A DNA stretch of 34,443 nucleotides from Longimicrobium sp. (GTDB lineage: Bacteria > Gemmatimonadota > Gemmatimonadetes > Longimicrobiales > Longimicrobiaceae): the NCBI GenBank assembly GCA_036389795.1, contig DASVWD010000101.1:1-34443 (forward strand), in the 5' to 3' direction. Of the stretch, positions 846 through 28,849 are shown piece by piece. Position 1 is the first letter of the stretch. Each line of letters starts with the position of its first letter. The notes under the pieces are model-generated. The model did no database searches. It saw only the letters and a program-made list of their open reading frames with translations, and had not been told where the DNA came from. The position numbers and the translations under genes are program-made.

Positions 846-3782
846 CTAGCGGGCCTCGTGGATGCGCGGCGCGGCGTAGTGCGCCAGCGCCATCACCGTG
901 AGCTGCGGGTTCACGGTGGTGGAGGTGGGGAACACGCTCGCGTCGCAGACGAACAGGTTCTGGTAGCCGTGCACGCGGAAGCCGGGGTCCACCACCCCCA
1001 GCGACGGGTCGCGGGAGACGGCGTTGCCGCCCTGCGGGTGCCCGGTGCCCAGCGTCAGCTCGTACGGGTCGAGGGCGACGGCCGGGAGCTGCGCCAGCAT
1101 GTTGGGGTGCGTGAACTCCAGGTACCGCCACGAGTTCAGCATCAGCCTCCGCGCGCCCGCGGCGAAGAGGATCTGCCCCAGCTCCATCAGCGCGTCGGCC
1201 AGCTTGCGCCGGTCGCCGTCGGTGGGCCTGTAGTGCACCGCCGCCCCGCCGGTGAGCGCGTCGCCGATGCTGCCGTTGCGCTCGGTGCCCACCAGCACCC
1301 CCACCGCCATCAGCCGGCGGTAGGCGCGCATGTTGTGGTAGTGGTCCTCGAACCAGCCGGGCATGTTCACCGCCTGCGAGACGGGCGGGTTGAACCAGGT
1401 CTCGTACACCCACCCGCGCTCGGGGCGCGGCACGCCGAAGTGCGAGATCTGCAGCCCGTCGAAGGCGTCCATCGGGTCGTCGAACTCGGCGGTGAACGGC
1501 GCGCCCAGGTTGAAGCTCACGTGGCGCCCCACCGGGAGCCCGGCGCCGATCCGGCTCTGCTTGAGGAGGTAGCTGGAGGCGATGGGGCCGGCCGCCACCA
1601 CGAACTTGCGGGCCCGCACCCGCAGCGTGCGCCCGTCGGGGAGCTTCGCCACGGCCTCGGTGGCCCGGCCGGCGCCGTCGGTGGCGATCCGCTGCACCGG
1701 GGCCTCGGAGAAGATGCGCACCCGGTCGGCGCCGAAGTCGCGCTGCGCCCAGGGGAGCGCCGTCTCCAGCATGGAGAGCTTGGCGCCGTAGCGGCAGCCG
1801 ATGTTGCAGTAGCCGCACCCCAGGCAGCCGGCGATGTTGGCGTCCACCGCGGCCGTGCGCAGCTGCTCCGGCGTGAGCCCCAGCCGCGCGACGCCCTCCA
1901 GGTACTTCGGGAACGAGGGGTTGAGCCGGTTGTGCGGGTTGTAGGGCGTGCCCTCGTCCTGGGAGCGGATCTTCAGCCACTCCTTCACCTGCTCGGTGCT
2001 GCGCCGGTACTCGTCGGCGTCGATCCCGGCGCGCAGCTCCTCGTTCCAGCGCCGCAGCACGTGGTCGGGGGTGGCGAACGACACCGCGTTGTTGATCACC
2101 GTGCTCCCGCCCACGCAGCTCCCCTGCAGCACCGTGAAGCGGAAGTCCTCGGTCTGCTGGAAGGCGCCGTCGGAGTACAGCTTCCCGATCATCTCCACCT
2201 CGTCGGGGACGAACTCCTTCGGCGGCACGTACATCCCGCGCTCCAGCACCACCACCGACGCCGAGGGGTCCATGCCGGCGAGCTGGTAGGCCAGCACCGC
2301 GCCCCCCGCCCCGCTGCCGATCACGCAGATGTCGGCGTCCACCACCTCGTGGCCCACGTCGTCCGGCTGGTGCACGCGGAGCTTCGGCTCGCTGGGCTTC
2401 AGCAGCCCCAGCGTGCGCAGCTCCTCGGCGCGCGGGCGGGCTTCGAACACCCGGTAGCCCACCGTGGCGTGGGCGCGCGGGTCGTTGTAGTAGCCCACGT
2501 AGGTGACCTGCTTGCCGATGCGGATCACCGCCTGCACCAGGCGCCGGAAGACGTCGGGAAGGAGCGGGAGGAGCACGTCGGCGAAGAAGTGCCGCTTCAG
2601 GTGGTCCAGCCGCCCCTCCTGGTCCAGTTCGGAGAGCGGCGCCTTGAGGTAGAGCACCGGGTGCGCCTGGATCGCCACCAGCGCGGCGCGCTGCACCCAC
2701 TTGCGCTTGGTGCGGATCTTCGCGACGTACTGGTCGACGTTGCGGGCCACCTCGGGCGCGGGGACGGCGCGCTCGGGGCCCAGCACCAGCACGTCGGAGA
2801 GCCCGATCAGCGTGCGGTACTGCCCGGGGCTCAGGAACCGGGGCTTCAGCCAGCGGCGGAAGCAGTGGTTCTTCACCAGCCAGGTCCCGATCGCGAGAGC
2901 CGCCTCGGCCAGGACCGTCACCCACATCAGCGTGCCGACGGTCGTCGTCCACCCCAGGAGGGTGACCACGGCCCCACGGTCGGCGAGGACGAGCGCCAGC
3001 AGCCCCGCCAGCGCGGTGAGGACCAGCCCGGCCGACACCACGCTGGCGGCGGGGAGCCGCTGGCGCGGCCGGTGGGCCACGTAAAGCGCCGCCAGCGCCA
3101 GGGCCGCCCCCCACCCCGCCGCGTGCGCGGCCAGCAGCGGCTCGGCGAACACCTGCCGCAGCCCGGCGGTGAACGGCCCCACGGCGGCTGCCGCGGCGAG
3201 GGCGGCGCCGGCCAGCGCGACCGGCACCAGCGGGACGCGGATGGCGCCCGCCTCGAGCCCCTGGGTCCAGTCCGGCCAATCGGGAGCGCCCTGCTTGGCG
3301 CGCGCCTCCCGGGCCGCGCGCGCCCCCTGGAGCACCAGGGAGGCGACCAGCACGTCGAGCGTCACCGACGCCGCGAGCACCCACGGCGCCGCCGCGCCGG
3401 CCACGCCCGCGACGGCGTACGCCGTCCCGGCGGCGGCGGATACGATGAGCGCCGCCGCCAGCGCGTGCGCCAGCCCGCCGCGCCGGCGCGGGTCGCCGCC
3501 CGCGTACATGCACAGCAGCATCAGCACGGCGGCGCGCCCGGCGGCCGCGTCCACCCAGGGCGGCTGGCGGAGCGCCTCGCGCCAGGGGCCGGGGACCACC
3601 GCGCCCAGCAGCGCCAGCGCCGCCAGGGCGAAGTACAGCATGGCGGCCAGGTGGAGCGTGCGCTTCAGGGCCCGCTCGGGGTCGGTGAGCGTCTCCAGCG
3701 GGAGCGGCGCGTCGGGCCCCGGGAGCCCGGCGAGCGCGGGGACGGGGACTCTGGCCTCGGCGAGGGTCTCGGTGGTGCTCAT
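846..3782 (-). CDS. Membrane-anchored GMC-family FAD oxidoreductase with a Cys-cluster insert
   Basis: This 978-residue protein has two parts. Residues about 40-305 are a membrane region with roughly eight hydrophobic helices. Residues about 480-978 are a glucose-methanol-choline (GMC) flavoprotein: the FAD-binding Rossmann motif GSGAGG lies at 489-494, and the C-terminal active-site region carries GTGHPQGG (His915) and VNPQLT (Asn958), matching the His/Asn pair of the family. The family oxidises alcohols, sugars or sterols with FAD. An unusual stretch has four cysteines, CLGCGYCNIGC (Cys653, 656, 659, 663), spaced like an iron-sulfur or zinc site. The start ATG is preceded by GGAGAG. The gene heads a two-gene operon and is served by a promoter at 3938-3965. 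Substrate and electron acceptor cannot be read from the sequence; the membrane domain hints at electron delivery to the membrane (inference). Confidence 0.9.
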   Translation of the reverse strand: MSTTETLAEARVPVPALAGLPGPDAPLPLETLTDPERALKRTLHLAAMLYFALAALALLGAVVPGPWREALRQPPWVDAAAGRAAVLMLLCMYAGGDPRRRGGLAHALAAALIVSAAAGTAYAVAGVAGAAAPWVLAASVTLDVLVASLVLQGARAAREARAKQGAPDWPDWTQGLEAGAIRVPLVPVALAGAALAAAAAVGPFTAGLRQVFAEPLLAAHAAGWGAALALAALYVAHRPRQRLPAASVVSAGLVLTALAGLLALVLADRGAVVTLLGWTTTVGTLMWVTVLAEAALAIGTWLVKNHCFRRWLKPRFLSPGQYRTLIGLSDVLVLGPERAVPAPEVARNVDQYVAKIRTKRKWVQRAALVAIQAHPVLYLKAPLSELDQEGRLDHLKRHFFADVLLPLLPDVFRRLVQAVIRIGKQVTYVGYYNDPRAHATVGYRVFEARPRAEELRTLGLLKPSEPKLRVHQPDDVGHEVVDADICVIGSGAGGAVLAYQLAGMDPSASVVVLERGMYVPPKEFVPDEVEMIGKLYSDGAFQQTEDFRFTVLQGSCVGGSTVINNAVSFATPDHVLRRWNEELRAGIDADEYRRSTEQVKEWLKIRSQDEGTPYNPHNRLNPSFPKYLEGVARLGLTPEQLRTAAVDANIAGCLGCGYCNIGCRYGAKLSMLETALPWAQRDFGADRVRIFSEAPVQRIATDGAGRATEAVAKLPDGRTLRVRARKFVVAAGPIASSYLLKQSRIGAGLPVGRHVSFNLGAPFTAEFDDPMDAFDGLQISHFGVPRPERGWVYETWFNPPVSQAVNMPGWFEDHYHNMRAYRRLMAVGVLVGTERNGSIGDALTGGAAVHYRPTDGDRRKLADALMELGQILFAAGARRLMLNSWRYLEFTHPNMLAQLPAVALDPYELTLGTGHPQGGNAVSRDPSLGVVDPGFRVHGYQNLFVCDASVFPTSTTVNPQLTVMALAHYAAPRIHEAR

Positions 3783-4083: not shown

Positions 4084-4437
4084 CTAAGCGGCCCGCCTCC
4101 GTGCGGCCACGCGGCGGGGCTTCGCCGGAGGAGTCTCCTCCACGGGGGATTCGCCCAGCTCACCCAGCGGCTCCAGGCGGATCTCGGCGCGGCGGCCCAG
4201 CGCATGGCAGACCTCCGCGAGAGTGCGCAGCGTCATGTTGCGCGCGCCGCTCAGCAGGGCGGTGACGTTCGCCCGGCTGGTCCCCAGCATCCGCGCGAGC
4301 TCGGCGCGCGAGACGCCGGCCTGCTCCATCAGCCCGGCGATCTGCTCGGTGGTCCACAGGACGAGGCGTTCCTGCTCGTACTCGCGGCGCGCCTCCGGCG
4401 TGGCGGTCTGCCGCTCGGTCCACTCGCGGTTCCTCAT
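4084..4437 (-). CDS. Xre-family HTH antitoxin (HigA-like)
   Basis: This 117-residue protein carries a helix-turn-helix of the Cro/C1 (Xre) type at about residues 38-90: AGVSRAELARMLGTSRANVT followed by LLSGARNMTLRTLAEVCHALG. The basic, Ala/Arg-rich tail (about 95-117) is probably disordered. It overlaps the upstream toxin gene by four bases (ATGA: ATG of this gene, TGA of the toxin), giving translational coupling and the toxin-first order typical of HigBA systems. By family knowledge the protein neutralises the toxin and represses the operon by binding the palindrome upstream (4841-4864). A long N-terminal extension is possible in this frame, but only the ATG at 4437 fits the coupling. Confidence is high for the DNA-binding role and moderate for the HigA name. 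Confidence 0.88.
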   Translation of the reverse strand: MRNREWTERQTATPEARREYEQERLVLWTTEQIAGLMEQAGVSRAELARMLGTSRANVTALLSGARNMTLRTLAEVCHALGRRAEIRLEPLGELGESPVEETPPAKPRRVAARRRAA

Positions 4438-4811
4438 CGCCTCCACCCTTTCTGGTCGAAGTACCAGCGCCGGCGCTCTTCGGCCCGCTCCAGGTCGGCG
4501 CGGCTGTGCTTGTCCTGCTTCTTGATCACGGCGTGCGCCAGCATCACGTGGCGGTCCGGCGTGAAGAAGCAGTAGATGCGGATCTGGAAGCTCTTGAATT
4601 CCCAGATCTCGTCGCGGTCGGCGAGCTTCTTGAACTTCGTGTCGTTCGAGATGCGTCCCGCCTCTCCCAGCATCTCGAACATCACGTCGAGCTTCCGTCG
4701 GTCGCCTGGCTCCAGTGCATCCAGGAAGTCGCCCACCGGATCGGAGCGGTCCGCCAGCTCCAGGCACTGGATCGTGAACCTGGCTCCGACGTATTCCGGA
4801 GGACGCGGCAT
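4434..4811 (-). CDS. RelE/HigB-like toxin (Gp49-type)
   Basis: This 125-residue protein resembles the RelE/HigB superfamily, in particular the phage Gp49-like group: about residues 58-100 read KKLADRDEIWEFKSFQIRIY then CFFTPDRHVMLAHAVIKKQD, with the usual Lys/Arg-rich end. Toxins of this family cleave mRNA at the ribosome. Several upstream in-frame ATGs exist; the one at 4811 is chosen because GGGAGG lies 7 nt before it and the operator at 4841-4864 lies upstream of it. It is followed by the Xre antitoxin with an ATGA overlap. Base composition is a little less GC-rich than the flanking genes, consistent with horizontal transfer. A HigB versus generic RelE/ParE assignment cannot be settled here. 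Confidence 0.88.
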   Translation of the reverse strand: MPRPPEYVGARFTIQCLELADRSDPVGDFLDALEPGDRRKLDVMFEMLGEAGRISNDTKFKKLADRDEIWEFKSFQIRIYCFFTPDRHVMLAHAVIKKQDKHSRADLERAEERRRWYFDQKGWRR

Positions 4812-4960: not shown

Positions 4961-5006
4961 CCGAAAAACGAAGCAACGCCCCCGCCGGCGAAGGCGGGGG
5001 CGTTGC
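4961..5006 (-). terminator. Rho-independent terminator of the cupredoxin cluster
   Basis: A perfect 14-bp stem (4973-4986 with 4993-5006) and a 6-nt loop are followed on the minus strand by TTCGTTTTT. It lies 24 bp beyond the last cupredoxin gene (stop at 5030). This is one of the two clearest intrinsic terminators in the window. Confidence 0.85.
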
Positions 5007-5029: not shown

Positions 5030-5416
5030 CTACTGCACCACCACCGTCGCCCGCATGGACGGGTGCGGCTCGCAGTGGTAGGGGTTGCTCCCGGCCTGCG
5101 TGAAGGTGCGGCGGAAGACGGCGAAGCGCGGCAGCACGTTCGAGTCCCAGACGTCCGCGTCGGACGTGCTGGAGTGCTGCGAGGGGCCGCAGTTCACCCA
5201 GACCACCTCCTGTCCCGACGCCACGGTGACCTGCGCCGGCGAGAACTGGAAGTCGGAGATGCGCACCACGTTGGCCGGCTGGGTGCCCGTGCAGAGCTCC
5301 TCGCCGTCGGTGGCGGTGATGCCGCCGCGGTCGGAGAAGCACCCGGCCAGCGACGACGCCGCCACCAGGGCCGCGAACGCCGCGCACGCGAAGCTGTAGG
5401 TCGAATGCGCTTTCAT
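5030..5416 (-). CDS. Plastocyanin-like cupredoxin lipoprotein
   Basis: This 128-residue protein has a signal peptide ending in a lipobox (SSLAGC, Cys26), so it should be a membrane-attached lipoprotein. A single cupredoxin domain spans about residues 45-128 with a full type 1 copper set: His81 (SQHSS), Cys115, His118 and Met121 (YHCEPHPSM). Cys42 and Cys76 may form a disulfide. Cupredoxins carry single electrons between periplasmic redox partners; the partner here is unknown. The gene starts inside the stop of the upstream barrel-cupredoxin gene (ATGA overlap) and ends just before a strong terminator, so it is the last gene of the cluster. The domain assignment is firm; the specific role is not known. 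Confidence 0.9.
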   Translation of the reverse strand: MKAHSTYSFACAAFAALVAASSLAGCFSDRGGITATDGEELCTGTQPANVVRISDFQFSPAQVTVASGQEVVWVNCGPSQHSSTSDADVWDSNVLPRFAVFRRTFTQAGSNPYHCEPHPSMRATVVVQ

Positions 5417-6495
5417 CGGACCACCACCGTGCCCTTCATGAAGGGGTGCGGAGTGCAGTGGAAGGGGTAGGTCCCCGGGCGCGTGAAGGTGTAGCGCCAC
5501 GTCCCTCCGCTCTGGACGAGCCCCGAGTCGAACGAGTTGTCGTCGGCCGTCACCGTGTGCGCCAGCGGGTCGTTGTTGGTCCACTCCACCGTGGTGCCGG
5601 CCTCGATCTCGATGCGCGCCGGCACGAAGGCCAGGTTGCGCATCCCCGCCTTCTCCACCTTCCCCGTGGGCGCCACCCCGCCCTCCTGCGGCGCGGCCGG
5701 CGGCGGGGGCGGGGCCGCGGGCGCGGCCGCCGCGCCGCGGCCGAACCAGCGCTGCAGCGTGAGCGGGATGGTGAACTCGAAGCCGTAGCGCACCACGTCG
5801 TCGCCCTTCGAGACGCCCTGGAGGGTGTAGACCGTGGTGTTGGTGGCCTGGATCGAGAGCGTGTGCGGCGTGTGCGGGATCGCCAGGTGCAGCCCCGCGC
5901 TCCACGCCATCTGCTCGCCCTCGTGCCGGTCGGTGAGCTGGGCCACGTCGCCGGCCAGCGCGAAGTAGCGCGAGATGCGCACCGTGGCGCCCCCGGCGAG
6001 CGCGAAGCGCGTCTGCCCGGCCGAGTCGGCGTCGGCCAGCACGCGGCCGGCGGCCACCACCCGCACCGGCCCCTCGCGCCGCGCCAGGCTCACCTCGCCG
6101 TCCACCCCGTCCGAGGCCAGGTTGTAGGCCACCATCCCGCCCAGGTCCAGCGGCGCGCCGCGGTCCTGCTGGAAGAGCGCGTGGCGCAGGAAGAACTCCC
6201 ACTCGTTGGGGAAGCCCGGCGCCAGCGTGGAGTTGGTGGAGTAGTGGAACCCCACCAGCGTCCGCATCGGCAGCCCCGCGGCCACGGTGAAGGTGGGGAA
6301 GTTGGTCACCTTCCGCTGCGGCGCGTCGCTGGCGATGAAGCGGTGGATGAAGTGGAAGTACAGCTGTCCGCTGCTCCCCACCCACCCCCCGTTCAGGTTG
6401 GGCGAGCGGTCGAGCAGCGACTGGGCGCGCGCGGGTGCTGCGAGCGCCCCGGCCGCGAGGGCTGCGGCGCACACGGCGCGGACGAATCTCGGCAC
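5413..6495 (-). CDS. Outer-membrane-barrel-like protein fused to a C-terminal cupredoxin domain
   Basis: This 360-residue protein begins with a classic signal peptide (cleavage near ARA-Q, about residue 25). Residues about 30-250 alternate like beta-strands and resemble DUF5777-type barrels (FHFIHRFIASDAPQRK, EWEFFLRHALF). An Ala/Pro linker follows at about 255-280, then a cupredoxin domain with ligands His313, Cys347, His350 and Met353 (FHCTPHPFM). I chose the GTG at 6495 because GGAG lies 7 nt upstream and the signal peptide then starts cleanly; the alternative ATG at 6522 touches the foot of a large hairpin and has no ribosome site. The gene is coupled by ATGA to the lipoprotein cupredoxin downstream. 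If the first part is a true barrel, the copper domain would sit at the periplasmic or outer face. The barrel call is inference from strand pattern. Confidence 0.82.
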   Translation of the reverse strand: MPRFVRAVCAAALAAGALAAPARAQSLLDRSPNLNGGWVGSSGQLYFHFIHRFIASDAPQRKVTNFPTFTVAAGLPMRTLVGFHYSTNSTLAPGFPNEWEFFLRHALFQQDRGAPLDLGGMVAYNLASDGVDGEVSLARREGPVRVVAAGRVLADADSAGQTRFALAGGATVRISRYFALAGDVAQLTDRHEGEQMAWSAGLHLAIPHTPHTLSIQATNTTVYTLQGVSKGDDVVRYGFEFTIPLTLQRWFGRGAAAAPAAPPPPPAAPQEGGVAPTGKVEKAGMRNLAFVPARIEIEAGTTVEWTNNDPLAHTVTADDNSFDSGLVQSGGTWRYTFTRPGTYPFHCTPHPFMKGTVVVR

Positions 6496-6524
6496 GGTCT
6501 GGCTCCAGGCTGGGGTAAACATCA

Positions 6525-6600
6525 GTGCCCAGTGCCTAGTGCCCAGTGCCCAGGAAGAAACCGTGCAGTTCCTGGGCACTGGGCACTGGGGACTGGGCAC
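6525..6600. repeat. 30-bp inverted repeat of ACTGGGC/GCCCAGT units
   Basis: The arms 6525-6554 and 6571-6600 pair at 28 of 30 positions around a 16-nt loop and are made of 7-bp ACTGGGC units in opposite orientations. The same heptamer occurs in tandem at 28818-28838. It lies between two cupredoxin genes and would form a very stable RNA hairpin that could terminate, attenuate or protect the transcript; it may equally be a dispersed repeat. Confidence 0.8.
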
Positions 6601-6606
6601 TTTACG

Positions 6607-7032
6607 TCACTGAACGGTAATGGTGCCCTTCATCCCCATCGCCATGTGGGGCATGCAGAAGAACTCGTAGCGGCCAGCCTTCACGCCCGCGAAGGAGACC
6701 ACGTAGGCCCCGTTGGGCTCGGTCACCAGCGCGCCCCAGAGCGGCTGCAGCTGGTTCGGCATCGCCGCCGCCAGCACCCGCTCCACGTCGTCGGGCACCT
6801 TGGCGGGGTCGAACGACACGTTGTGCGGGCCGCCCGACACGTTCACGAAGCGGATGCGGTCGCCCGCGTGGATGGTCAGGTTCGCCGGCTCGAAGCGGGC
6901 CGTCTGCCCCTCCATGATCATCTTCACCTCGTGCGTGGCGGGGGGCGTGGCCGCCTCCAGCCCGCTGCGGGCGCCCATCGCGGCCAGGGCGAGCGCGCCC
7001 GCGGCCAGACCCATCGCGATCTTCCTGCTCAT
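6607..7032 (-). CDS. Pseudoazurin-like cupredoxin, periplasmic
   Basis: This 141-residue protein has a cleavable signal peptide (residues 1 to about 27, ending near GLEAA). It then carries one cupredoxin domain with copper ligands His70 (GPHNV), Cys126, His129 and Met134. The ligand loop CMPHMAMGMKG closely follows the pseudoazurin pattern, in which the axial Met is the second of the closely spaced methionines. The gap between His70 and Cys126 is long (55 residues) and holds a helical insert. GAGAGG precedes the ATG. It lies 42 bp downstream of the Ig-like/cupredoxin gene and is followed by the 6525-6600 hairpin, so it probably belongs to the same transcript. Role: soluble periplasmic electron carrier (family knowledge); partner unknown. 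Confidence 0.9.
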   Translation of the reverse strand: MSRKIAMGLAAGALALAAMGARSGLEAATPPATHEVKMIMEGQTARFEPANLTIHAGDRIRFVNVSGGPHNVSFDPAKVPDDVERVLAAAMPNQLQPLWGALVTEPNGAYVVSFAGVKAGRYEFFCMPHMAMGMKGTITVQ

Positions 7033-7074
7033 CGTACTGCCTCTCGTTTCAGGGGTGGTTTGCGAGGCCGCGCG

Positions 7075-8616
7075 CTACTGCACGACCACCTGGCCAGTCA
7101 TCCCGCTGTGCCGGGTGCACTGGTAGTTGTAGGTCCCCGCGGTGGGGAACGTCCGGCTCACCGAGGTCCCCGAGCGCGTGTCGGGGATGCTGCCGCCCGT
7201 GGGCGCCGCGCCCGAGAAGGTCACGTTGTGCGTGGCGCCCGAGATCTGCCACGTCACGGTCCCGCCCGCCGCGATCGTCACCGTCTGCGGGCTGAAGCTC
7301 TCGCCCGGCGTGGTGACGGTGGCCGTGCTGTTCCCCGGCGGCGGCGGGGGCGGGGGCGGCGCCGTGGTGGTGGTGACGGTGATGGTCGCCGTGGCCGTCT
7401 TCGTGGTCCCGCCCGAGGCCAGCGTGGCGGTGATGGTCGCCGTCCCCGCCGCCACGCCGGTCACCAGCCCCGACGCGCTGACGGTGGCGACCGCCGAGCT
7501 CGACGACGACCACTGCGCGCTTCCCAGCCCGCTCATGGCCGCGCCGTACTGGTCGCGCGGCGTGGCGGCCAGCTGCAGCGTGGCGCCCACCTGCACCGAG
7601 CCGCTGGACGGGCTCACCGTGAGCGAGGTGTAGGTGGGGGGCTGCTGGGGAGTGTCGCCGCCCGCCTTCACCTCGACGGTACCCTGGATCTCGTGGCGCG
7701 TGCAGTGGTAGGCGTACGTCCCCGGCTGGCTGAACTTGCGGCTGACCGAGGTGCCCTCCTCGGTGCGGCCGGCGCTCCCCCCGTCGGGCGCGATGGTGTA
7801 GAAGGTCACCGTGTGGTCGTCGTCCACCATCGTCCAGGTGACCGTCCCGCCCACCGCGATGGTGACCGCCGGCGGCGAGTACCCGCTGCGCCGGGCCGCG
7901 ACCGCGGCGGTGCTGGGCGCGGGCGGGGCGGGAGGCGCGACCACCGTGACGCTCGCCGCCGCCTGCCGGGTGACGCCGCCCGCCGTGAGCGACGCCGTGA
8001 TCGTCACCGCGCCCGCCGCCACGCCGCGCACCACGCCCGACGCGTCCACCGTCGCGCGCGAGGCGTCGCTGGTGCTGAAGGTCGGCGCGGGGAGCCCCGC
8101 CATCGCGGCGCCGTTCTGGTCGCGCGGGGTGGCGGTGAGCTGGAGCGTTCCTCCCACGTTCACCGAGCCCGCGTCGGGCGAGAGCGTGAGCGAGGTGAAG
8201 GTGGCCGAGGGCGGCGGCGGCGGCGGCGCCGTGACCGTGAGGTCCGCCGTGGCGGTGTGGGTCGCCCCTCCCGCGGTCAGCGTGGCGCGGATGGTGACGG
8301 CGCCCGCCGCCAGCCCCGTCACCAGGCCGTTGCCGTCGACCGTGGCCTTCGCCGGGTCCGACGACACGAAGGTGGGCGCCGGGAGGCCGCTGAGCGCGTT
8401 CCCCGCGGCGTCCTTCGGCGTCGCCGTGAGCTGGAAGCTGCCGCCGACGGGAACCGTGCCGCTGGTGGGCGAGAGCGCGAGCGACGCCAGGGTGCCGCCG
8501 CCGTTCGCCGGGGGGGTGGTCTCCGTGGGGGTGCCGCCGGAGGCCGCGCCGCCTCCGCCGCACGCCGCCGCGATCGTCGCCGCGAGCGCGACCGCCAGGT
8601 ACTGCCGGTACCGCAT
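7075..8616 (-). CDS. Lipoprotein with three BIG2 Ig-like domains and two cupredoxin domains
   Basis: This 513-residue protein reads as a mosaic: lipoprotein signal (Cys19); Ig-like BIG2 domain (about 42-129); Pro-rich linker; BIG2 (139-226); cupredoxin (238-317); BIG2 (328-414); poly-Pro linker; cupredoxin (431-513). The second cupredoxin has His463, Cys500, His503 and Met506. The first has His268, Cys305 and His308, but where Met should be it reads EIQG (Ile310/Gln311), so its copper site would lack the axial Met. The two copper domains share an unusual long loop (PDGGS/PTGGS to GTSVSR) and probably arose by internal duplication. The ATG at 8616 is preceded by AGGAGG and gives a clean lipobox; the longer upstream frame overlaps the inverted repeat and is rejected. 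BIG2 repeats usually act as stalks or adhesive modules, so a surface-displayed copper protein is likely (inference). Confidence 0.9.
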   Translation of the reverse strand: MRYRQYLAVALAATIAAACGGGGAASGGTPTETTPPANGGGTLASLALSPTSGTVPVGGSFQLTATPKDAAGNALSGLPAPTFVSSDPAKATVDGNGLVTGLAAGAVTIRATLTAGGATHTATADLTVTAPPPPPPSATFTSLTLSPDAGSVNVGGTLQLTATPRDQNGAAMAGLPAPTFSTSDASRATVDASGVVRGVAAGAVTITASLTAGGVTRQAAASVTVVAPPAPPAPSTAAVAARRSGYSPPAVTIAVGGTVTWTMVDDDHTVTFYTIAPDGGSAGRTEEGTSVSRKFSQPGTYAYHCTRHEIQGTVEVKAGGDTPQQPPTYTSLTVSPSSGSVQVGATLQLAATPRDQYGAAMSGLGSAQWSSSSSAVATVSASGLVTGVAAGTATITATLASGGTTKTATATITVTTTTAPPPPPPPPGNSTATVTTPGESFSPQTVTIAAGGTVTWQISGATHNVTFSGAAPTGGSIPDTRSGTSVSRTFPTAGTYNYQCTRHSGMTGQVVVQ

Positions 8617-20538: not shown

Positions 20539-22290
20539 CTACGGCAGCGCGAACACGATCAGCGCGTTCCCGCGCGGGGCGCCGTACATCTCCGGCGCGT
20601 ACCCCTCCACCCAGCCGCCCCAGCCGGTGGGCACCGCCACGTACTGCCTGCCGTTCACGCTGTAGGTGACCGGGTTGCTGTGGATGCCGCTGCCGGTCTG
20701 GAAGGTCCACAGCACGCGCCCGCTGCGCGCGTCGAAGGCGTGGAAGTTCCCGTTGGGCTCCCCGGCGAAGACCAGGTCCCCCGCGGTCGCCAGCACGGAG
20801 GAGAGGATCGGGTGCTCGGCGCGCCACGACCACACCTCCCGCCCCGTCGCGGGGTCGAACGCCTTCACGTGCCCCCACTGCTCCTGGTCGAGCGCCACCT
20901 CGCCGCCCCAGTAGGGCATGCTCTCCTCGAACTCGGTGGGCTTCAGCTTGAAGGTGCCGCACGCCTCCACCACCGGGGTGTAGAGCAGGCCCGTCCGCGG
21001 GCTGTAGGCGGCGTGCGGCCACTCCTTGAGCCCCGCCGGGCCGGGGCAGATGTGCACGCCCTCCGGCGTGGGCGTCCGCTGCACCGCCACCCTCCCCTGG
21101 GCGTCGATGGCGCCCCAGGTGACGCGGCCGTAGGGGACGGCGCGCACGAACTGGCCGTTGGTGCGGTCCAGGACGAAGAGGTGCCCGTTCTTGTCGAAGT
21201 GGGCCAGCAGCTTCCGCCCCTCCTGCTCGAACAGGATGTTCTCGTTGACGCCGTCGTAGTCCCACACGTCGTGCGGCGTCCACTGGTAGTGCCAGCGCAG
21301 CGACCCGTCGTCGGGGTCGATGGCCACCATCCCGCTGGTGTAGAGGTTGTTCCCCGGCCGCACGCTCCCGTCGAAGTCCGGGCCCGGGTTGCCGACTCCC
21401 CAGTAGACGAGGTCCAGCTCGGGGTCGTAGGTGCCCGTGATCCACGCCGTCCCCCCGCCGCGCGCCCAGCTCTGGTCGCCGCCCCAGGTGTCGGCGCCGG
21501 GCTCGCCGGGCTTCGGCACGTTGTAGCGCCGCCAGACCCGCGCGCCGGTGCGCAGGTCGAAGGCGTCGATGTGCCCGCGCACCCCGTACTCGGCCCCCGA
21601 GCTGCCGACGATCACCAGGTTCTTCACCACCAGCGGCGCCAGCGTGGCGCTCTCGCCGGCGCGCACGTCCACGAAGGTCTGCTGCCACACCGGCCGCCCG
21701 TTCGCGGCGTCCAGCGCCACGAGCTGGCCGTTCTGGGTGGCCACGAACACCCTCCCCTGCGCCACCGCCACCCCGCGGTTGACGTTGCCGCAGCAGAGCG
21801 GCACGTCCAGCGGGATCGGGTGGCGGTACTGCCAGAGGAGCCGGCCGCTGGCGGCGTCCAGCGCCCACACGTAGCCGTCCCACCCGGAGACGTACATCAC
21901 CCCGTCCACCACGATCGGGGCGGCCTCGAACGAGTAGGTGGCGGGGTTGGCGACCAGGCCGATCACCCCGGTCTGGAAGACCCAGGCGGGCCTGAGCCGC
22001 GCCACGTTGCCGGTGTTGATCTGGTCCAGCGGGCTGTACCGCTGCCCGTCGTAGGCGCCGTAGTAGGTGAGCCAGTTCTGCGGCTCGGAGCGGGCCCGCG
22101 CGATGCGCTCGGAGGTGACCCCCTGCGCCACCGGCGGGGCCGAGCCCGCCTTGGCCTCGTTCATGTCCGAGAACGGCCGGGCCTGCTGGGTGATCGGGTA
22201 GCGGGTGCGCACTCCGCACGCCGGGAGGAGGAGCACCGCGAGGGCGACGGCGGACGCCAGGCGCAGATTGGTCGCAGCATGCGTGGTCAT
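20539..22290 (-). CDS. PQQ-dependent alcohol dehydrogenase lipoprotein with lanthanide-type Asp signature
   Basis: This 583-residue protein has a lipoprotein signal (Cys25) and an eight-bladed PQQ propeller. Diagnostic features are the vicinal disulfide LCCGN (Cys166-Cys167), NPGPDFDG, and the catalytic segment PHDVWDYDGVNEN with Asp344 and, two residues on, Asp346. In the methanol dehydrogenase family an Ala at that second position marks calcium enzymes, while Asp marks lanthanide enzymes such as XoxF and ExaF/PedH, so lanthanide use is predicted. It oxidises alcohols in the periplasm and hands electrons to a c-type cytochrome or copper protein. GGGAGGGAG precedes the ATG. The blue-copper lipoprotein gene ends 13 bp upstream, making an operon. 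No PQQ synthesis or cytochrome gene lies in the window. Confidence 0.93.
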   Translation of the reverse strand: MTTHAATNLRLASAVALAVLLLPACGVRTRYPITQQARPFSDMNEAKAGSAPPVAQGVTSERIARARSEPQNWLTYYGAYDGQRYSPLDQINTGNVARLRPAWVFQTGVIGLVANPATYSFEAAPIVVDGVMYVSGWDGYVWALDAASGRLLWQYRHPIPLDVPLCCGNVNRGVAVAQGRVFVATQNGQLVALDAANGRPVWQQTFVDVRAGESATLAPLVVKNLVIVGSSGAEYGVRGHIDAFDLRTGARVWRRYNVPKPGEPGADTWGGDQSWARGGGTAWITGTYDPELDLVYWGVGNPGPDFDGSVRPGNNLYTSGMVAIDPDDGSLRWHYQWTPHDVWDYDGVNENILFEQEGRKLLAHFDKNGHLFVLDRTNGQFVRAVPYGRVTWGAIDAQGRVAVQRTPTPEGVHICPGPAGLKEWPHAAYSPRTGLLYTPVVEACGTFKLKPTEFEESMPYWGGEVALDQEQWGHVKAFDPATGREVWSWRAEHPILSSVLATAGDLVFAGEPNGNFHAFDARSGRVLWTFQTGSGIHSNPVTYSVNGRQYVAVPTGWGGWVEGYAPEMYGAPRGNALIVFALP

Positions 22291-22303
22291 GGCTCTCCCT
22301 CCC

Positions 22304-22864
22304 TCAGGGCCGGCGCTGGCGCGGACGGTCGAGCTTCGCCTCGGGCGGCACCTCGCCGCCCACCATGATCAGCCCCAGCATCCCGCGCCCGGCGTGGTTG
22401 GAGATCGGGCAGCCGAACCAGTACAGGCCCGGCTGGTCGAGCCGGATCCGTACCCGCCCCGCGGTGTGCATGGGGAGCATCATCGCCTGCCGCTCGGGGA
22501 CGCTGGGGGCGAAGATGGCGTGGAGGTTCTGGTCGGTGTTGTGGACCTCCAGCTCCAGCTCGCCGCCCTGCGGGATGCGGATGATGGCCGGGCGCCAGAT
22601 GAACTGGTTCTTGGGGATGGTGATCTCGTCGCGGTACACCCCGTCGCGCCCCCGCTTCGCGTGCGAGAGGCCGCCGTGGGCGAACAGCCGGGCCACCACG
22701 CGCCCGTTGGGGTCGTCCACCGCGGGGAGCTCGTTGACCAGGCGCACCACGTCGGGGTTGAGCTGCTTGAGCACGCTGGGCCTCAGCAGCTTCACGTACT
22801 CGCACGACGAGAGGAAGGTGAACAGGGCGAGCGGCACGAAGAGCCGGAACCAGTGGGCTTTCAT
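22304..22864 (-). CDS. PQQ-associated blue copper lipoprotein (MSMEG_3727-like)
   Basis: This 186-residue protein has a lipobox (FLSSC, Cys21) followed by a conserved N-terminal block (EYVKLLRPSVLKQLNPDVV) that resembles the PQQ-associated MSMEG_3727 family. Its cupredoxin domain carries His115 (NLHAIF), Cys152, His157 and Met162 (FGCPISNHAGRGM), a complete type 1 copper set with a slightly widened loop. It is the first gene of a two-gene operon with the PQQ dehydrogenase, 13 bp apart, so it is the obvious candidate for the electron acceptor of that enzyme (inference). The start at 22864 is chosen for the signal peptide; the longer frame would place a basic, non-secretory stretch in front. 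The AT-rich control region 22937-22970 lies upstream. Confidence 0.87.
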   Translation of the reverse strand: MKAHWFRLFVPLALFTFLSSCEYVKLLRPSVLKQLNPDVVRLVNELPAVDDPNGRVVARLFAHGGLSHAKRGRDGVYRDEITIPKNQFIWRPAIIRIPQGGELELEVHNTDQNLHAIFAPSVPERQAMMLPMHTAGRVRIRLDQPGLYWFGCPISNHAGRGMLGLIMVGGEVPPEAKLDRPRQRRP

Positions 22865-28698: not shown

Positions 28699-28817
28699 GG
28701 CGGGCTGTGTAGACGGATCGCGGGCGGCGCAGGTTTCATCCTCCCCGAACGTAGCCCTGCCCTTCTCGCGGGGCAAGCAATCTCGCGTCGTCGCCGGCTC
28801 TCTCGCCCGCGCCCGGT

Positions 28818-28838
28818 ACTGGGCACTGGGCACTGGGC
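28818..28838. repeat. Three tandem ACTGGGC heptamers
   Basis: Units start at 28818, 28825 and 28832. The same heptamer builds the large inverted repeat at 6525-6600. The array sits about 10 bp before copy 2 of the 57-bp-core element. Confidence 0.8.
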
Positions 28839-28849
28839 ACTGTGGTTTG

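Follow-up and report, generated by a model that had tools for sequence, protein, structure and literature searches.

A cluster of four genes in Longimicrobium sp., a member of the Gemmatimonadota, probably represents a genuine redox module of the outer membrane that is based on copper and has so far gone undescribed, since relatives across the phylum keep the fusion of a beta-barrel and a cupredoxin that it encodes. The cluster lies on the minus strand at 5030-8616 of the window, the whole 34,443-nucleotide stretch that was analysed (GenBank assembly GCA_036389795.1, contig DASVWD010000101.1, positions 1 to 34,443), and belongs to a genome of 7.5 Mb in 285 contigs. The original prediction, made from the window alone, described four minus-strand genes with five cupredoxin domains, and open reading frames and Pfam searches recover all of them: Copper-bind is found twice in gene 1, together with three Big_2 domains, and once each in genes 2, 3, and 4. 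The whole genome holds seven Copper-bind domains by Pfam, and the presence of five of them within 3.6 kb excludes clustering by chance. The components of the cluster are the following.

7075..8616, minus: gene 1, lipoprotein (lipobox AAAC) with three Big_2 and two cupredoxin domains
7669-7881, minus: first cupredoxin of gene 1 (Copper-bind profile), His-Cys-His, loop CTRHEIQ
7078-7299, minus: second cupredoxin of gene 1 (Copper-bind profile), loop CTRHSGM
6607..7032, minus: gene 2, secreted soluble plastocyanin-like cupredoxin, loop CMPHMAMGM, without lipobox
6523..6606, minus: TGCCCAG heptamer repeat, dispersed and palindromic, filling the gap from gene 2 to gene 3 and forming a strong hairpin
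5413..6522, minus: gene 3, signal peptide, predicted 12-stranded beta-barrel, disordered linker, and C-terminal amicyanin-like cupredoxin
5740..6426, minus: barrel domain of gene 3, remote DUF5777 relative
5677..5733, minus: Pro/Ala-rich disordered linker of gene 3, model residues 235-253, predicted local distance difference test score (pLDDT) <50
5419..5646, minus: cupredoxin of gene 3 (Copper-bind profile), ligands His, Cys, His, and Met, loop CTPHPFM
5030..5416, minus: gene 4, cupredoxin lipoprotein, lipobox LAGCFSD, loop CEPHPSM
5033-5269, minus: cupredoxin of gene 4 (Copper-bind profile), loop CEPHPSM
4973..5006, minus: intrinsic terminator, 3' of gene 4

The fusion resides in gene 3. Its product begins with a signal peptide, as judged by eye, and the structure predicted for the full protein from 26 homologues (mean pLDDT 88) contains 12 long strands at residues 24-226, followed by the linker and a cupredoxin fold. 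A model of the barrel alone likewise features 12 strands (pLDDT 89.7, predicted template modelling (TM) score 0.85). The alternation of hydrophobic and polar faces in these strands exceeds that of all 5,000 shuffles on two scales, and the best Foldseek matches in the PDB are of the outer membrane type, namely FapF, NanC, Tsx, VhGalP, a designed 12-strand transmembrane barrel, and PcoB. Taken together, the signal peptide, the closed and even-stranded barrel, the face alternation, and the fold matches point to an outer membrane beta-barrel. What had been described as a barrel-like protein fused to a cupredoxin thus becomes, in the predicted structure, a true outer membrane barrel joined to a cupredoxin fold. 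Because an even number of strands leaves both barrel ends in the periplasm, the copper domain of gene 3 should be periplasmic. The length of the linker between barrel and cupredoxin varies widely among homologues, as expected for a tether, and an unfused barrel homologue (L059) terminates in Phe, as is common among barrel proteins. By judgement rather than computation, a 12-stranded barrel looks too narrow for a cupredoxin of about 90 residues, making a direct copper wire through the membrane unlikely.

Membership of the type 1 (blue) copper class was judged by the PF00127 curated score together with the His-Cys-His-Met ligands. Read from the sequence, this ligand set is complete in four of the five domains of the cluster; in the first cupredoxin of gene 1, which scores above the profile threshold, Gln stands in place of the axial Met. 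Type 1 sites with an axial position other than Met usually have a lower potential, and this domain may be differently tuned or may bind copper in another mode. The gene 3 cupredoxin features the loop CTPHPFM, which we take to be identical to that of amicyanin. Its best solved match is 9cck, the C-terminal cupredoxin of a Nitrosopumilus copper oxidase/nitrite reductase, and amicyanins are among the closest structures; despite the shared loop, gene 3 falls under the curated equivalog cut-off for amicyanin (TIGR02657, 54.7 versus 110.2 bits required). Gene 2, the loop of which has plastocyanin or pseudoazurin spacing, had been called pseudoazurin-like, a label that does not hold: plastocyanin is closer (TIGR02656, 79.2 bits versus 35.1 for pseudoazurin), and the best solved structure is a cyanobacterial plastocyanin. 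Gene 2 nevertheless resembles plastocyanin without reaching its curated equivalog cut-off of 87.85 bits.

The finding is real, and conservation of the fusion across many Gemmatimonadota families makes it stronger than could be told when the original prediction was made. Deduplication across partly overlapping locus sets left 90 distinct barrels. Two are truncated by a contig end; of the 88 others, 82 carry the fused cupredoxin and six do not. One of the unfused barrels, L079, looks frame-disrupted. All readable fusions but one (80 of 81) keep the ligand loop, C-x2-H-(x2 or x4)-M, with amicyanin spacing in 70 and plastocyanin spacing in 10; the exception reads CIPHESFMR. On a tree of the barrels, the loop spacings and the unfused state each change several times, pointing to repeated changes, replacements, or losses of the copper domain. 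P0002-like matches occur in 41 of 117 relatives; by their match ranges, about 30 of these hold the barrel itself, and the others match via the cupredoxin only. All 32 loci from a named genome collection belong to the Gemmatimonadota, in a scan that relied on two conserved peptides and could miss more distant homologues.

Recurrence of the gene order in related genomes had been proposed as a check, with failure of the genes to co-occur in any relative as grounds for refutation, and such recurrence was found. The four-gene order is complete in four relatives (L031, L033, L034, and L035, with gene 1 cut by a contig end in L035), three of the four genes are kept in two others (L032 and L036), and the fusion extends across many families. 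A conserved four-gene unit is supported by these comparisons of gene content. The original prediction knew of no described system with this combination, and the open-access literature, the coverage of which leaves subscription journals aside, yielded no description of the fusion and no publications on DUF5777, Longimicrobium cupredoxins, or barrel-cupredoxin fusions.

The lipoproteins of the cluster offer some indication of where it operates. From the lipobox Cys onward, gene 1 reads C-G-G and gene 4 C-F-S, with Gly and Phe at position +2 and Asp in neither. Asp at +2 is the inner membrane retention signal in Escherichia coli, and this rule, which may not be that of the present phylum, suggests an outer membrane location for both lipoproteins. 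The originally proposed chain from an inner membrane lipoprotein to the outer membrane is not supported by these residues. Homologous loci often retain the cupredoxin gene just downstream of the barrel gene; it mostly encodes a lipoprotein, with CFS(E/D) directly following the lipobox. The upstream cupredoxin neighbour is often a lipoprotein with another immunoglobulin (Ig)-like spacer by Pfam (CarboxypepD_reg or SdrD_B, not Big_2). These differing Ig-like spacers indicate that a 'stalk plus cupredoxin' architecture recurs on unrelated stalks.

Judged on sequence and predicted structure, the cluster rather likely encodes an outer membrane module for electron transfer via cupredoxins. The gene 3 barrel would sit in the outer membrane, with a flexible tether linking its periplasmic C-terminus to a blue-copper domain of amicyanin type, genes 1 and 4 would provide lipid-anchored cupredoxins, and gene 2 would provide a soluble plastocyanin-like shuttle. 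The barrel in this arrangement would hold the copper domain on the periplasmic side of the outer membrane; single electrons would probably be exchanged between the tethered domain and periplasmic donors or acceptors. The barrel may also let in a small redox-active substrate to be oxidised or reduced by the copper domain. Several features favour electron transfer: the type 1 sites are intact, the docking loop is of the amicyanin kind, a tethered partner is a design known from copper nitrite reductases, redox genes lie nearby, and links to copper resistance are weakly supported. Gene content, copper ligands, barrel fold, fusion, conservation, and gene neighbourhood were computed, and from these we infer the redox function, the direction of flow, the partner molecules, and the role of the barrel as a pore.

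Several known systems share elements of this design. In copper nitrite reductases, a fused and tethered cupredoxin or cytochrome is an established form of redox partner (PMC7201279, PMC13324648). Like gene 3, the three-domain copper nitrite reductases and 9cck possess a C-terminal tethered cupredoxin with a similar loop; their tether leads to an enzyme, whereas that of gene 3 leads to a membrane barrel. Porin-cytochrome fusions of the Cyc2 type function in iron oxidation, and in Acidithiobacillus the downstream partner is the cupredoxin rusticyanin (PMC10654088). Cyc2 resembles gene 3 in uniting an outer membrane beta-barrel and a one-electron carrier in a single chain, but it carries haem, while gene 3 has 12 strands and a C-terminal cupredoxin on a long tether. 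The gene 3 protein contains no CxxCH motif, and Cyc2 membership was rejected. PcoB is a 12-stranded outer membrane copper channel with a disordered copper-binding N-terminal tail (PMC9210255). PcoB/CopB and gene 3 have in common the 12 strands, the periplasmic location of both ends, and the link to copper; they differ in that the tail is disordered in the former and a folded cupredoxin in the latter, and they show no sequence or profile relationship. CopB/PcoB identity of the barrel was rejected on the same grounds, as there is no Pfam CopB (PF05275) match and the profile comparison gives a probability of 0.15 percent. The fusion is best placed among the known unions of a barrel with an electron carrier, as a form in which copper takes the place of haem.

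A more distant kinship of the barrel emerges from profile-profile comparison with DUF5777 (PF19089), which gives a probability of 95.6-96.4 percent and E 1e-8 to 1e-9 over 203 columns; a direct Pfam search returned no DUF5777 match for gene 3 even at E 0.1. By this comparison, the gene 3 barrel is a remote DUF5777 relative at the level of superfamily kinship. A genome-wide search found no DUF5777 genes in this genome. The two kinds of barrel share an HR motif and a His/Asn close to the C-terminal strands, and both have redox gene neighbours, but the DUF5777 members read here have no cupredoxin tail. In a deeper Gemmatimonadota branch, DUF5777 barrel genes adjoin Rieske proteins (L110, 890-3259; L112). 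DUF2231 membrane proteins adjoin the DUF5777 barrel genes of L109 and L110, and L110 also encodes, near its barrel gene, a small one-CxxCH protein without a Pfam match; a second gene set of barrel and redox carrier is possible at L109, L110, and L112. In another lineage, DUF5777 genes are found near a quinoprotein dehydrogenase. From such gene contexts, we read barrels of this type as recurrently linked to periplasmic one-electron carriers, with the fusion as the strongest apparent case.

Of 56 loci with the barrel gene, 36 have a cupredoxin gene as its immediate neighbour, and beyond these cupredoxin neighbours nothing is constant around homologous loci. At L084, Pfam identifies Gluconate_2-dh3 and GMC dehydrogenase genes directly upstream of the fusion gene, and its relative L089 has the same genes upstream, as recognised by sequence resemblance. 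This GMC dehydrogenase is separate from a 978-residue protein of the window (846-3782, minus), in which a long N-terminal region precedes a GMC oxidoreductase domain. CHRD-domain genes lie beside the barrel-cupredoxin gene in three lineages (L041, 10190-11275; L050, 9244-9756; L077, 1783-2166), and a second CHRD copy in L041 was assigned by resemblance.

A number of observations weigh against an electron-transfer module. With L079 set aside, five unfused barrels remain, implying that a barrel can function with no copper domain attached, and barrel distribution in the phylum is patchy (71 of 298 genomes and 42 of 119 sampled genera). The Foldseek TM-scores, taken by query length, are only about 0.44-0.59 for the 12-strand matches and hence support the fold class and no specific relative. 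The axial Met is missing from the first cupredoxin of gene 1 in all five orthologues, in which His, Cys, and His are conserved, so not every domain of the cluster is a standard electron carrier. Homologous loci share no constant neighbour that is a dedicated oxidase, reductase, or dehydrogenase. Lastly, copC, copD, a cupredoxin gene, and the barrel-cupredoxin gene form one gene run at L048.

The L048 run favours the main rival explanation, copper handling of a Pco-like kind, in which the barrel would be a copper-permeable outer membrane channel and the tethered and lipid-anchored cupredoxins would capture, store, or pass on periplasmic copper. This reading is rather unlikely. Five clustered copper domains could act as a sponge, and PcoB, with its 12-stranded copper channel (PMC9210255), is among the Foldseek matches; however, the barrel is unrelated to CopB by both comparisons given above, and CopB occurs in no scanned genome of the two families in which the fusion is most frequent. 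The copC gene occurs irrespective of the fusion (23 of 30 carriers versus 76 of 87 non-carriers, p = 0.24), a co-occurrence that is uninformative because most genomes carry copC, and CopC/CopD neighbours are confined to the one locus. Complete type 1 sites, as cupredoxins are generally understood, also fit electron transfer better than exchangeable storage.

A further and decidedly unlikely possibility is a haem-free copper route for electrons to or from the cell exterior, in which the barrel would let a small redox substrate from outside reach the tethered cupredoxin, and the lipoprotein and soluble cupredoxins would carry the electrons on to the respiratory chain. If true, this route would be the copper counterpart of porin-cytochrome systems. 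It is slightly more doubtful again that the barrel is a mere anchor or non-redox channel, that the cupredoxins serve several unrelated oxidases and dehydrogenases, and that the cluster consists of tandem-duplicated paralogues. The adjacency of genes from one family, the widely differing neighbouring genes among genomes, and the unfused state of some barrels would all be accommodated in this way. The four architectures, however, are different, as are their nearest solved relatives (plastocyanin for gene 2; the nitrite reductase cupredoxin and amicyanin for gene 3), and a gene order recurring over several families fits a working unit better than chance duplicates. It is very improbable that the cupredoxins serve denitrification by feeding electrons to nitrous oxide reductase or a copper nitrite reductase. 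Domains fused to NirK-type enzymes are among the closest solved cupredoxins, and nirK above cut-off is found more often in genomes with the fusion (12 of 30) than in those without (11 of 87, p = 0.003). This association is gone within the two fusion-rich families (p = 0.70), such that relatedness may explain the raw value; 18 of the 30 carriers are without NirK, nosZ is not associated with the fusion (p = 0.28), and no nirK/nosZ-type gene is adjacent. The present genome itself has no NirK or NosZ above cut-off and, given also the loss of the association within families, denitrification is not the common partner.

The layout of the DNA encoding the proposed electron-transfer module agrees in part with what had been predicted. 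A strong terminator does close the cluster (14 pairs followed by TTCGTTTTTC on the minus strand, 4973-5006), while ATGA coupling holds for genes 3 and 4 only (overlap 5413-5416), the other gaps being 42 bp (genes 1/2) and 84 bp (genes 2/3). The 84 bp gap is filled by the TGCCCAG repeat and has a very stable fold (z = -7.1), although its hairpin is not an obvious terminator because it has no U tract. This heptamer repeat, often tandem and palindromic and similar to repetitive extragenic palindromic elements, is also found at about 28814-28846, with 77 exact 18-mers genome-wide. The cluster region contains no Rfam elements, no sigma-70-type promoter was found for the cluster, and the DNA upstream of the four-gene unit shows no clear shared regulatory site when compared within the genus. 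Lrp/AsnC proteins are encoded just upstream of the cupredoxin cluster at three loci in two families (L039, 6552-7061; L049, 7040-7552; L054, 2331-2816) and are possible regulators of it.

Elsewhere in the window, a Gp49-like (DUF891) and helix-turn-helix gene pair just past the terminator (4084-4811, minus) is probably a toxin-antitoxin module of the HigB/HigA type. A second copper-redox pair is found at 20539-22864 (minus), where the gene for an MSMEG_3727-type cupredoxin-like protein associated with pyrroloquinoline quinone (PQQ; PF23509, TIGR04339) lies directly upstream of that for a PQQ alcohol dehydrogenase (TIGR03075, 607 bits).

Fusions of a barrel and an electron carrier are known with haem, as in Cyc2, and a blue-copper version would add copper to the redox options of the outer membrane. 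The fusion would also provide a first functional lead for DUF5777-like barrels and offers a testable gene set in the little-studied Gemmatimonadota.

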